Of a stretch of DNA of 41,009 bases, positions 22,616-24,930 are shown in pieces; position 1 is the stretch's first letter; each line of letters opens with the position of its first letter. Below the pieces are notes generated by a model, which worked only from the letters and a program-made list of their open reading frames with translations, was not told where the DNA came from and searched no databases. The position numbers and the translations under genes were made by a program. Origin of the DNA: Alistipes sp. Its GTDB lineage: Bacteria; Bacteroidota; Bacteroidia; Bacteroidales; Rikenellaceae. The stretch is from the NCBI GenBank assembly GCA_017623505.1, contig JAGAOZ010000026.1, positions 1 through 41,009 on the forward strand. Direction: 5' to 3'.

Positions 22616-23020
22616 TCAATCAGTCGATACTAAACGAATTCTACAATTTTCGCCGCCGTAATTTTGAAATGGATAATGATCATCGTCCTCTTCGTAATAT
22701 ACCCGTCCGTTTTTATCGTACATATAACTGGTGGTGCTCTCTACATTGGTTTTGTCTTTATTGTTATAAAGTAGCTGTAATTCCGTCCACGTTGGGAGAC
22801 GCCAATTTTTACGTCCGTATGTGCCAACTTTATTTATAGAAATTATGACGTCAGCTGGAAAATGATCAAACCAACCTAAGTCCTCTGGGAATACATACAG
22901 ATAACCCAACAGACAAATCGTAGGACTTTCAACTTCCTCTTTTATTTCGCGTATTTCTTGACCCTGTGCTTGATAAGTATATACAAATAGCGTTGCAAGC
23001 ACCAATAGTATTCTTTTCAT
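22616..23020 (-). CDS. Small exported protein with DUF1566/FISUMP-like WRLPT motif
   Basis: The 134-residue product has a signal peptide ending QAQG before Q21. The mature domain contains CLLGYLYVFPEDLGWF, then NWRLPTWTELQLLYNNKD, and ends CRIRLVSTD. The WRLPT-EL and terminal RLV elements recall DUF1566/FISUMP (C-type-lectin or sulfatase-modifying-factor-like) modules, but this is a short version and the match is by eye. It lies directly behind the structured RNA at 23075-23365 and before another small exported protein. Function is unknown. Confidence 0.7.
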   Translation of the reverse strand: MKRILLVLATLFVYTYQAQGQEIREIKEEVESPTICLLGYLYVFPEDLGWFDHFPADVIISINKVGTYGRKNWRLPTWTELQLLYNNKDKTNVESTTSYMYDKNGRVYYEEDDDHYPFQNYGGENCRIRLVSTD

Positions 23021-23074
23021 AATTAATATTATTATTTTTTATGCTCAATTCAATGCCTTAGTTATTACTTAAAA

Positions 23075-23365
23075 GAACGCACAAAAAAGCGCGGCACTTT
23101 TAGTGTATTCGCTTCCCAGGGTGTTTGGCGTAACCCAATCTGCAGAATAACCAAAAGCCCACGCCGACTAGCGTGAGCATTTTTTGCAATATCCTTGCAG
23201 ATTTTCCTTTTATAGTCGCCAAACTTTTGGGAATGCAGAATAAAGCTAAAACGCTTTTTCGATATGTCTAAAATGTGCGTACTTCGTTATACGCTATGCT
23301 TCATAGGCAATCCATTTAATCATTATCCACAAATTCATCTCTGCCAAAGTACTACTTCAGTACTA
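23075..23365 (-). ncRNA. Highly structured RNA or long leader ahead of the small exported proteins
   Basis: Read on the minus strand, a 6-base hairpin (23348-23364) comes first. An outer stem pairs 23274-23283 with 23074-23083 (9 of 10). Inside, TTCCCA (23228-23233) pairs with TGGGAA (23113-23118), and GTTTGGCG (23217-23224) with CGCCAAAC (23123-23130). ATCTGCA (23196-23202) pairs with TGCAGAT (23138-23144), and GCTCACGC (23171-23178) with GCGTGGGC (23157-23164). All are nested, giving one long rod with an asymmetric bubble. It has none of the RNase P, tmRNA or SRP signatures I looked for. A 6S-like RNA or a cis-acting leader are alternatives. Ends are approximate. Confidence 0.6.
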
Positions 23366-23396
23366 CAAATATAACAAATCTTTTTCTCAATTCAAA
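23366..23396 (-). promoter_or_regulatory. Promoter of the structured RNA
   Basis: On the minus strand TTTG (23393-23396), 19 bases, then TATATTTG (23366-23373). It is among the best consensus matches in the window. The next start codon downstream is about 340 bases away. Confidence 0.75.
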
Positions 23397-23496
23397 ATTT
23401 CTACCGCAAACATTAGTATCCCTTAATTAACCTTTAGTCTCCCTATCTTCCCTAACTTCCTTAAACTCCCTCTATACACGCCTCTCCCAAAAGCAA

Positions 23497-23522
23497 TGCG
23501 GGTAACCAATCGGTTACCCGCA
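23497..23522 (-). terminator. Terminator of the 11-gene operon
   Basis: TGCGGGTAACC (23497-23507) pairs perfectly with GGTTACCCGCA (23512-23522) around AATC. On the minus strand it is followed by TTGCTTTT. It lies 65 bases past the last stop codon of the operon. Confidence 0.75.
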
Positions 23523-23586: not shown

Positions 23587-24930
23587 TTACAGTTTCGGCT
23601 CCCAGCCCTTTTCATACTTACGTCCCCACAGACGATTTATCTCCTTGTCTGCGTTGAGGATGCGACCGCTCACAGGGTCAATCTCCAATGAGTGTCCCAC
23701 ACGCTGTGCTATGTTACCATACTGCACCAACTGAGTACTCATACAAGCCTCCACGATGTCGGAGTTGAGCTTCGTACCCTTGCGTATAGCGTCAAACCAG
23801 TTGCGGAAGTGGAATACGTCGAGTGCCTCCGATGGATTCAAGAGGTTGCCCTCCTCGAACTGCAAATCGCTCTTCACATCCTTGATGACCTTACCCTTCA
23901 TATCGCAAATCTTGTAGTCGTTACCACCCGAGAGGTAGAGTGTGCCTTTCTCGCCGTAGAACGCCACGCCTAAGCCCTGGTTATCCACAGGCTGTGAGTT
24001 ACAGCTGCGACCCTCCCACGAGCACGATGCCTCGTCGCCAAACTGATATGTTATGAGCTGTGTGTCGGGTGCCTCCCAATCATCCTGGTAGTAGTAGCGA
24101 CCACCTATCGAATCGACTTTGGTAGGGTAATTAACCTTCAATCCCCAACGCAACAAATCTACAAAGTGCGTTCCGTTGTTGAGGGCCTCGCCTGTTCCCC
24201 AGTGCCAGAACCAGTGCCAGTTGTAGTGTACGATATTATCCTTGTATGGGCGACGTGGAGCAGGGCCCTGCCACAACTCCCAATCCAACCATTCAGGCAC
24301 CTCTACCTCCTTACCTATGCCTATTGATGGGCGTGCATTGACATACCACGACTTCGCATAGCGTACCTTGCCTATCTCTCCTGCGTGCAATTCAGCTATC
24401 GCCTTCTGCACATTGGGCCACGAACGTCGCTGATTACCCACCTGCACCACCGCTCCTGTCTTGAGAGCTGTGCGTACCAACATATCATTCTCGGCAGGGT
24501 TGTGGCTCGTTGGCTTCTCTAAGTAGACATGTTTTCCTGCCTGCATAGCCATTATAGCCGCTGGTGCGTGCCAGTGGTCCGGCATAGCTATCACCACAGC
24601 ATCCACATCCGGCTTTTCAAGCAATACACGCAAGTCGCGCTCGCCCTTTGGGGCTTTGCCCGTAATCTTCTGGATGCTGTTTTGGCAGCGTGTTATCGCG
24701 CGCTCATCTACGTCGCAGACGTAAGTTATCTCACAGTCGGGTAACTTACATAACCCCTTTGCTATGCCTCGTCCACGCGAGTTCACTCCGATTATACCGA
24801 TGCGTATGCGGTCATTTGTTCCCAGCACCTTACCCAGTGGCGAGGCTGCAAACGACGATGCAACACCACCCAACGAGAGTGCCGCCGCACCTGCCAAAGT
24901 CTGTTTCAAAAAGTCTTTTCTTGTTAGCAT
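23587..24930 (-). CDS. Exported Gfo/Idh/MocA-family oxidoreductase
   Basis: The 447-residue protein starts with a Tat-like signal (TRKDFLKQTLAGAAALSLGG; one Arg of the usual pair is missing). A Rossmann domain follows (RIGIIGVNSRGRG near 42-54), with GKHVYLEKP as the EKP motif and a C-terminal alpha/beta domain (WHWGTGEALNNGTHFVDLLRW). The family oxidises or reduces sugars with NAD(P), and exported members probably leave the cell with bound cofactor. It is the last gene of the operon; substrate unknown. Confidence 0.9.
   Translation of the reverse strand: MLTRKDFLKQTLAGAAALSLGGVASSFAASPLGKVLGTNDRIRIGIIGVNSRGRGIAKGLCKLPDCEITYVCDVDERAITRCQNSIQKITGKAPKGERDLRVLLEKPDVDAVVIAMPDHWHAPAAIMAMQAGKHVYLEKPTSHNPAENDMLVRTALKTGAVVQVGNQRRSWPNVQKAIAELHAGEIGKVRYAKSWYVNARPSIGIGKEVEVPEWLDWELWQGPAPRRPYKDNIVHYNWHWFWHWGTGEALNNGTHFVDLLRWGLKVNYPTKVDSIGGRYYYQDDWEAPDTQLITYQFGDEASCSWEGRSCNSQPVDNQGLGVAFYGEKGTLYLSGGNDYKICDMKGKVIKDVKSDLQFEEGNLLNPSEALDVFHFRNWFDAIRKGTKLNSDIVEACMSTQLVQYGNIAQRVGHSLEIDPVSGRILNADKEINRLWGRKYEKGWEPKL

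Follow-up and report, generated by a model that had tools for sequence, protein, structure and literature searches.

The minus strand of the window, the whole 41,009-nucleotide stretch of Alistipes sp. DNA analyzed here, carries a copy of a structured RNA that, judged from comparison of its homologues, is very probably a cis-acting mRNA leader. This copy is probably the 5′ leader of the mRNA for an exported protein with a WRLPT motif, and the gene that follows is probably on the same mRNA. Its relatives are best explained as a family of structured leaders that is widespread in the Bacteroidota, precedes mostly genes for envelope or exported proteins, and is apparently undescribed. Structured mRNA leaders are a known kind of element; new here are the unusual core, the minimal open reading frame (mini-ORF) at the 5′ end, and the unusual class of target genes.

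The RNA lies in a noncoding stretch between ORFs 22616–23020 and 23587–24930 (Table 1). A sequence-only reading of this DNA had proposed a structured noncoding stretch with a promoter of its own ahead of an exported protein. The structured stretch is real, and the element is redrawn as minus-strand positions 23314–23073 plus a 3′ pairing partner at 23057–23053. Minus-strand positions 23050–23311 fold at −84.7 kcal/mol, as compared with −62.7 ± 4.7 kcal/mol for shuffled sequences (z = −4.7, with 0 of 200 as low), and other cuts of the same stretch yield z values of −3.9 and −4.1. The proposed promoter is found as an exact match, ~58 nt from the mini-ORF motif; with spacings of 19–21, the 41-kb window contains the pattern three times on its minus strand (this one included) and twice on its plus strand. 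A second, TGnnTTTG box occupies the place where most homologues carry TAnnTTTG. On the same strand, the gene upstream of the leader RNA encodes a GFO/IDH/MocA oxidoreductase, and between the two a perfect 10-pair hairpin, GCGGGTAACC/GGTTACCCGC, is observed at 23498–23521. This hairpin is a possible terminator of the oxidoreductase transcript; because it could end that transcript, the leader RNA seems to open its own transcription unit. The WRLPT protein does carry a predicted export signal, as had been claimed, and has a weak match to Lcl_C, below the Pfam cutoff. The product of the second gene has no Pfam match.

Table 1. Features of the leader RNA locus on the minus strand of the window
Feature	Position	Strand	Remark
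Promoter-like TTTG-19-TATATTTG	23366–23396	−	exact match; promoter role putative
Second −7-like box TGAATTTG (TGnnTTTG, weaker)	23330–23337	−	read from sequence; 22 nt 5′ of CCTATG
Conserved structured leader RNA, whole covariance-model match	23073–23314	−	211.8 bits, this copy being among the 23 sequences used for building the model
Mini-ORF ATGAAGCATAGCGTATAA (MKHSV*)	23287–23304	−	
5′ hairpin H5 (GCGTA/TACGC)	23277–23294	−	candidate; one strand common to P1
P1, 5′ strand	23274–23282	−	
P2, 5′ strand AAAAGCG	23252–23258	−	
P3, 5′ strand TTCCCA	23228–23233	−	read from sequence
Loop 1 of hairpin HP1, loop-loop helix strand GTTTGGCG	23217–23224	−	
Apical hairpin P6, GCTCACGC...GCGTGGGC	23157–23178	−	
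Hairpin HP2 (GGT...ACC)	23120–23135	−	loop CGCCAAAC (23130–23123) pairs with loop 1
P3, 3′ strand TGGGAA	23113–23118	−	read from sequence
Pseudoknot, 5′ strand GTGCC	23093–23097	−	
P2, 3′ strand CGCTTTT	23085–23091	−	
P1, 3′ strand	23076–23083	−	
Pseudoknot, 3′ strand GGCAT	23053–23057	−	last pair G-U
First gene behind the leader, 134 aa	22616–23020	−	export signal, WRLPT motif
Second gene, 134 aa	22144–22548	−	N terminus resembles an export signal

When members of the family are read side by side, a single architecture is observed across its sub-classes. A 5′ hairpin is followed by a RACAUAU-like stretch, P2, P3, and the small hairpin HP1, and then by an apical arm, P5/P6, the small hairpin HP2, and the 3′ strands. 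P2 takes the form AAAAGCG/CGCUUUU or GAAAGUGU/ACACUUUC, and class 1 and class 2, the sub-classes closest to the window copy, have in addition an outer helix, P1. HP1 and HP2 are joined by pairing between their loops, through sequences that differ among members, including CTTCGAC/GTCGAAG, TTGGCG/CGCCAA, CTGGTA/TACCAG, and TGTGGAAG/CTTTCCACA. The five bases 5′ of the P2 3′ strand pair with a GGNAC-type stretch that starts a median of 32 nt past the beginning of a T-run, closing a pseudoknot. The nested long-distance stems of the sequence-only reading are present, except that the 8-pair “stem” 23224–23217/23130–23123 is better read as the loop-loop helix between the two small hairpins.

Comparison of the homologues shows this predicted fold to be conserved in the P3 arm, the loop-joined hairpins, the apical hairpin, and the 3′ pseudoknot, bearing out the earlier claim of a conserved RNA with compensating changes. 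Covariation was assessed in a MAFFT alignment, not fitted to structure, of 47 members with a DUF805b-like stretch (see below), 13 divergent ones of the 60 such members having been left out by hand. In this alignment 90.2% of cells are paired; 34 of 64 pairs have both-sided changes, as compared with 20.5 in shuffled and 15–20 with slid partners, and the covariation score is 0.243 (0.140 shuffled, 0.06–0.10 slid). Both-sided changes are observed in all eight pairs of P3, in six of the eight pairs of the loop-loop helix, in five of the eight pairs of P6 (100% paired), and in three of the five pseudoknot pairs. In P1, 96% of cells are paired and two of nine pairs have both-sided changes. P2 (99.7% paired) is almost invariant and the GGT/ACC stem of HP2 is invariant, so covariation cannot speak for either, and P5 is just 68% paired. 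H5 is paired in 85% of cells with no compensating change, and H5 and HP0, a local hairpin of the P2 5′ strand, are together 88% paired, as compared with 88.1% in shuffles, and lack covariation. In a comparison of the three strands of H5 and P1, the strands are nearly invariant, in part since TACGCAY was a fixed requirement of the DNA pattern through which many members were found, which removed most variation at the shared strand.

The pseudoknot was further evaluated without an alignment, by seeking an exact 5-mer partner in each member's own downstream 75 nt. Such a partner is found in 84 of 113 typed members, as compared with 3.4% of 9,902 mismatched comparisons; when three registers are allowed, the values are 88 of 113 and 17.8%. 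With G-U as its last pair, the window copy misses the exact test. The pairing rule holds for GTACC/GGTAC (95% of 42), GCTCC/GGAGC (80% of 5), GTTCC/GGAAC (79% of 24), and GTGCC/GGCAC (77% of 13), is less firm for GTCTC (60% of 5) and GTCCT (50% of 4), and is poor for GTCCC, for which a partner is found in 29% of 17. A looser test, any helix of at least 5 pairs, was dropped, as it was satisfied by 146 of 151 own pairs but also by 85% of mismatched pairs. For the loop-loop helix, 72 of 82 members that had not been chosen by DNA pattern form at least 7 Watson-Crick pairs, as compared with 3.1% crosswise; this effect size, unlike the variety of the loop sequences, is inflated, since the loop was picked for maximal pairing and the pairs were already in the model. 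The members are related, and structural and linkage counts are accordingly not counts of independent events.

The compensating changes bear on whether the element is instead a mobile or repeat element, such as a palindromic repeat or a cassette spread by transposition with structure at the DNA level. Many copies per genome and GCGTATA direct repeats near both ends would suit such an element, as would one apparent loss between these repeats: in L017 (G028:C13, ~1420–1530 minus), the whole RNA is absent, the CCTATG mini-ORF, the pseudoknot partner, and the exported-protein gene are kept, and the joint falls at a GCGTATA repeat, so that the RNA looks to have been lost by recombination between repeats. 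Compensation at the RNA level and an orientation fixed relative to the following ORF argue otherwise, as does the lack of matches for the window copy in phage or plasmid records and for the class 1/2 DNA pattern in IMG/VR, each collection having been searched with one class 1/2 query. A transposon or palindromic repeat is therefore considered highly improbable.

The window has no Rfam 15 match at gathering score, in agreement with the earlier statement that no signatures of RNase P, tmRNA, or SRP could be seen. The search around the element that had been suggested, run here at E values up to 5, returned low-scoring matches alone, far below the family cutoffs, and no family was found. BLAST with the element identifies 3 matches in its own genome. 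Of 61 genomes searched, 15 yield a match: 13 of the 37 that belong to the genus and 2 of the 24 drawn from the order's other families. A covariance model, R1, built from 23 sequences and comprising 242 positions, finds 14 matches in the 2-Mb genome of origin: 3 strong matches and 11 at 25–66 bits. Ten of these 11 show the same architecture by eye; the remaining one (53 nt, 25 bits) is doubtful. Within the genus, R1 has matches in 40 of 41 genomes, with E below 1e-8 in 38 of them; it also has matches in 99 of 295 genomes of the order and in 37 of 345 genomes of a phylum sample, four of the last being partial matches only, at 24–30 bits. In 599 kb of pattern loci, the model gives 116 matches at E below 0.01, of which 80 are sense copies of at least 50 bits and 33 are antisense shadows of copies of that kind, leaving 3 others; no match is found in 50 kb of E. 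coli at E below 1. The antisense shadows reach 18–34 bits, so scores in that range are no evidence by themselves. A DNA-pattern scan of named genomes yields at least 118 stretches. Among the pattern matches listed are Alistipes, other Rikenellaceae, Bacteroidaceae, Paludibacteraceae, Muribaculaceae, Prevotella, Barnesiella, Dysgonomonas, and others, mostly metagenome-assembled genomes (MAGs) and many from animal guts, including ruminant. A cultured carrier, Dysgonomonas sp. 511, has a copy at locus L069. One pattern match, in a MAG labeled Elusimicrobiales (L070), scores just 18 bits with the model and likely reflects chance or misbinning.

The family members are linked to the genes behind them by position and by predicted export. 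An ORF on the same strand (at least 35 codons, or 25 at a contig end) starts no more than 260 nt from the model end in 150 of 153 members, at a median of 73 nt past it (10–90%: 42–99), with a median length of 142 aa, some being clipped where the locus ends. In 143 of 148 cases the closest 3′ ORF shares the leader's strand, as does the closest 5′ ORF in 100 of 143. By a home-made rule, an export signal (Sec or lipoprotein-like) is predicted in 131 of the 150 first ORFs and is lacking in 19, as compared with its presence in 143 of 525 (100 aa or longer) and 77 of 422 (60–250 aa) control ORFs from the same loci. The 150 first ORFs fall into 102 homology clusters, 89 of which have the signal. In score-ordered sets, it is present in 47 and absent from 14 of 61 first ORFs at the level of the order, with 2 further members lacking an ORF, and it is present in 12 of 18 in other orders, with 1 further member lacking an ORF.

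Several loci depart from this arrangement. Two copies in the genome of origin, L201 (C25) and L203 (C5), are followed by small zinc-ribbon-like ORFs in place of signal-peptide proteins, one of these ORFs having a membrane segment by eye. Small ORFs that by eye resemble helix-turn-helix proteins rather than exported ones (71 and 91 aa) follow in L316 and L319, and in L153, L121, and L323 the ORF behind the RNA looks cytosolic (starts MSKKYFICDFARS or similar).

The identity of the target proteins varies considerably. Pfam assigns 42 families over 125 downstream proteins, the commonest of which, LRR_5, DUF6567, Por_Secre_tail, and Lcl_C, have four members each, and no common pathway is seen among the 102 clusters and 42 families. 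The link to WRLPT-type proteins that the sequence-only reading had put forward holds in the genus, where four of five such proteins, the window's own counted, have the RNA upstream (in one of the four, ~1 kb before the matching part of the protein). It does not extend to the family: homologues do not keep the same downstream protein, and the link is to exported proteins generally. Several genomes of the class that belong to other orders (L240, L241, L242, L246, L249, and L251) have a SusC-type-looking ORF as the next large one, beginning 430–520 nt past the RNA start (~215–310 nt past the model match). In L240, Pfam identifies a CarboxypepD_reg-like domain followed by the plug domain of a TonB-dependent receptor; the other five were assigned by eye. 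A TGCCTRTG mini-frame with an early stop is observed between the RNA and the receptor in L240, L241, L246, and L251, not in L242, and a short divergent ORF is located close upstream in L240, L241, and L251.

The sequence-only reading had left open whether the RNA is free and 6S-like or a cis element, and cis is favored because the RNA is multi-copy and nearly always closely followed by a same-strand ORF. A free small RNA, 6S-like or trans-acting, that is transcribed or processed here with the downstream gene as a bystander would account for the promoter box of its own, for the T-run of five or more that 131 of 133 mini-ORF members have near the model end, and for the three terminator-like matches in 22950–23450 (0.2 in shuffled sequence), two of which are on the minus strand inside the element. 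It is nevertheless improbable given the ORF behind 150 of the 153 copies, mostly with an export signal; moreover, the pseudoknot partner is placed 3′ of the U-run, the T-run is shorter than 5 in 5 of 19 other-order members, and no 6S match is found even at an E value of 5. Reading the U-run as part of an intrinsic terminator was likewise not adopted, as the stem is long-range and the run is short in those same other-order members; local terminator-like hairpins nonetheless exist within the element.

Two rival cis readings were weighed. In the first, the RNA is a ligand-binding riboswitch, with the core, made up of the loop-loop helix and pseudoknot, as the aptamer and with an incidental mini-ORF. 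The core is strongly conserved, including in members without the mini-ORF, and one tandem pair is observed: L048 has two RNA copies (3441–3198 and 3166–2945 minus), separated by ~30 nt, and both precede a single lipoprotein-like ORF of 202 aa. Tandem arrangements occur in some known riboswitches. A common pathway, which is usual though not strictly defining for riboswitches, is missing from the 102 downstream clusters, and the stop pattern of the mini-ORF would be left without explanation, making this reading unlikely. In the second, the leader is constitutive and stabilizes the mRNA, recruits an RNA-binding protein, or aids translation or localization of mRNAs for exported proteins without switching. 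Such a leader would fit a link to exported proteins as a class and not a pathway, a fold that ends shortly 5′ of the start region, and the pairing of P6 in all aligned members. A maintained mini-ORF stop would be odd for a pure stabilizer, and the L017 relative has lost the RNA yet kept the gene; a constitutive role, too, is unlikely.

The leader starts with CCTATG in 133 of 153 members, and all 133 of these frames stop within six codons. The most frequent types are MKH* (38), MKHSV* (31), MKHRV* (11), MK* (11), and MKHCV* (9), with others rarer; the 1–6 codons contain no run for a single amino acid. A TAnnTTTG box is located no more than 70 nt 5′ of the mini-ORF in 91 of 133 members (median distance 26 nt) and within 50 nt of the model start in 90 of 151; in control windows placed further upstream, the corresponding counts are 5 of 149, 0 of 146, 2 of 145, and 2 of 145. 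The GCCT just 5′ of the mini-ORF start is not A-rich. The DNA pattern required GCCTATGAA for many members, so the presence of the motif is over-counted; it leaves the stop free, so the presence of the stop is not. In frames that lack an early stop, a stop codon is located right behind GCGTA in 54 of 58 cases, as compared with 19 of 75 frames that have one. This contrast persists after clustering at 90% (30 of 34 vs. 10 of 59) and is weak after clustering at 80% (3 of 4 vs. 1 of 18). Such a pattern is good, if not final, evidence that the stop is under selection and the mini-ORF translated. As 20 of 153 members have no CCTATG mini-ORF, it is not essential family-wide.

From this arrangement we infer that the leader is a control device for envelope genes, read by a ribosome or a ligand. 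The mini-ORF overlaps the 5′ strand of H5, and the 3′ strand of H5, TACGCAC, doubles as the 5′ strand of P1; AAAAGCG can likewise pair locally, in HP0, or with the distal CGCTTTT in P2. Because of this overlap and the shared strand, a ribosome on, or ending at, the mini-ORF would cover the 5′ strand of H5 and favor P1/P2 and the closed, pseudoknotted fold: the freed TACGCAC would pair with the far-downstream GTGCGTA to form P1, after which P2 would form. Closure of P1/P2 would shut the folded domain and the pseudoknot just 5′ of the main start region and might thereby alter translation or early elongation of the exported-protein gene, in either the ON or the OFF direction. A ligand or an RNA-binding protein could read the core. 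A mini-ORF switch of this kind is proposed tentatively, at rather less than an even chance, and the explanation as a whole is considered somewhat more likely than not. Since H5/HP0 is no better paired than in shuffles and shows no covariation, the two alternating states remain a proposal. More speculative is a phylum-wide system in which a ribosome on the mini-ORF of three or five codons (MKH*, MKHSV*) sets the fold of a 240-nt kissing-loop/pseudoknot RNA and so coordinates envelope proteins that are mostly unrelated to one another, among them the TonB-dependent receptors seen in other orders; this extended version we consider rather unlikely.

The leader RNA can be compared with several known RNAs. 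6S RNA is present as one or two free copies per genome. The leader RNA shares a rod-like outline with side loops with 6S RNA (and 6S-Flavo, RF01685), but has 14 model matches in one genome and sits before an ORF; with no match at the E value given above, 6S RNA was rejected. Leader-peptide attenuators likewise have a very short 5′ ORF followed by helices with common strands; unlike them, the leader RNA has no run of codons for a single amino acid and has a large pseudoknotted core, and switching is only proposed. In purine-class riboswitches, the loops of two hairpins pair with each other beside a junction. The leader RNA differs from these in its size (~240 nt), its extra apical arm, its 3′ pseudoknot, and the lack of common metabolic genes. 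The FopS RNAs of Bacteroides, trans-acting and ~65–70 nt in length, are similarly multi-copy Bacteroidales RNAs tied to outer-membrane genes (PMC11697453). FopS and GibS were rejected, as their length and mode differ from those of a ~240-nt apparent cis leader.

Among the papers listed by searches of open-access literature, none was recognized as describing this RNA. It could be present, unnamed, among the thousands of candidate RNAs from human microbiomes reported in PMC8040213. PMC9723704 describes structured 5′ elements without Rfam hits in a flavobacterium and the absence of Shine-Dalgarno sites in flavobacteria. For Bacteroides thetaiotaomicron, PMC7366714 gives 13.5% of mRNAs as having a 5′ UTR over 100 nt and ~2% of these long UTRs as predicted to hold a known riboswitch. 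It also notes that short ORFs resembling leader peptides occur in some of them, in keeping with the reading of the leader as one with a mini-ORF. If the present interpretation is true, a large multi-copy leader RNA for which no name was found exists in a dominant gut phylum and, given the figures in PMC7366714, could account for part of the long B. thetaiotaomicron 5′ UTRs. It would offer a minimal mini-ORF whose stop seems kept across a frame shift, and, taken with the flavobacterial findings in PMC9723704, control of surface-protein translation in Bacteroidota without Shine-Dalgarno sites would become directly testable.

A separate leader element is often found next to the RNA. A DUF805b-like stretch, defined by a regular expression, is located 3′ of the RNA in 60 of 153 members, as compared with 7 of 636 control windows, at a median of 31 nt past the model end. 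The DUF805 motifs reportedly come from one earlier paper. DUF805 and DUF805b (Rfam RF03081 and RF02914) are likewise Bacteroidales leader elements near start codons, but are 35–68 nt in length and have separate covariance models. Identity with the leader RNA was rejected, as no such Rfam match falls within the element; at other loci the matches fall 3′ of it, and the genome of origin has no match to either. Conversely, the large RNA is observed within ~150 nt upstream at 4 of 30 DUF805b and 2 of 30 DUF805 loci; since these motifs mostly occur without it, the leaders look modular. In relatives such as L026, L169, L298, L313, and L325, DUF805b or DUF805 is situated between the large RNA and the start codon, and DUF805b itself appears, by eye, to be pseudoknotted through an ACC...GGG pairing.
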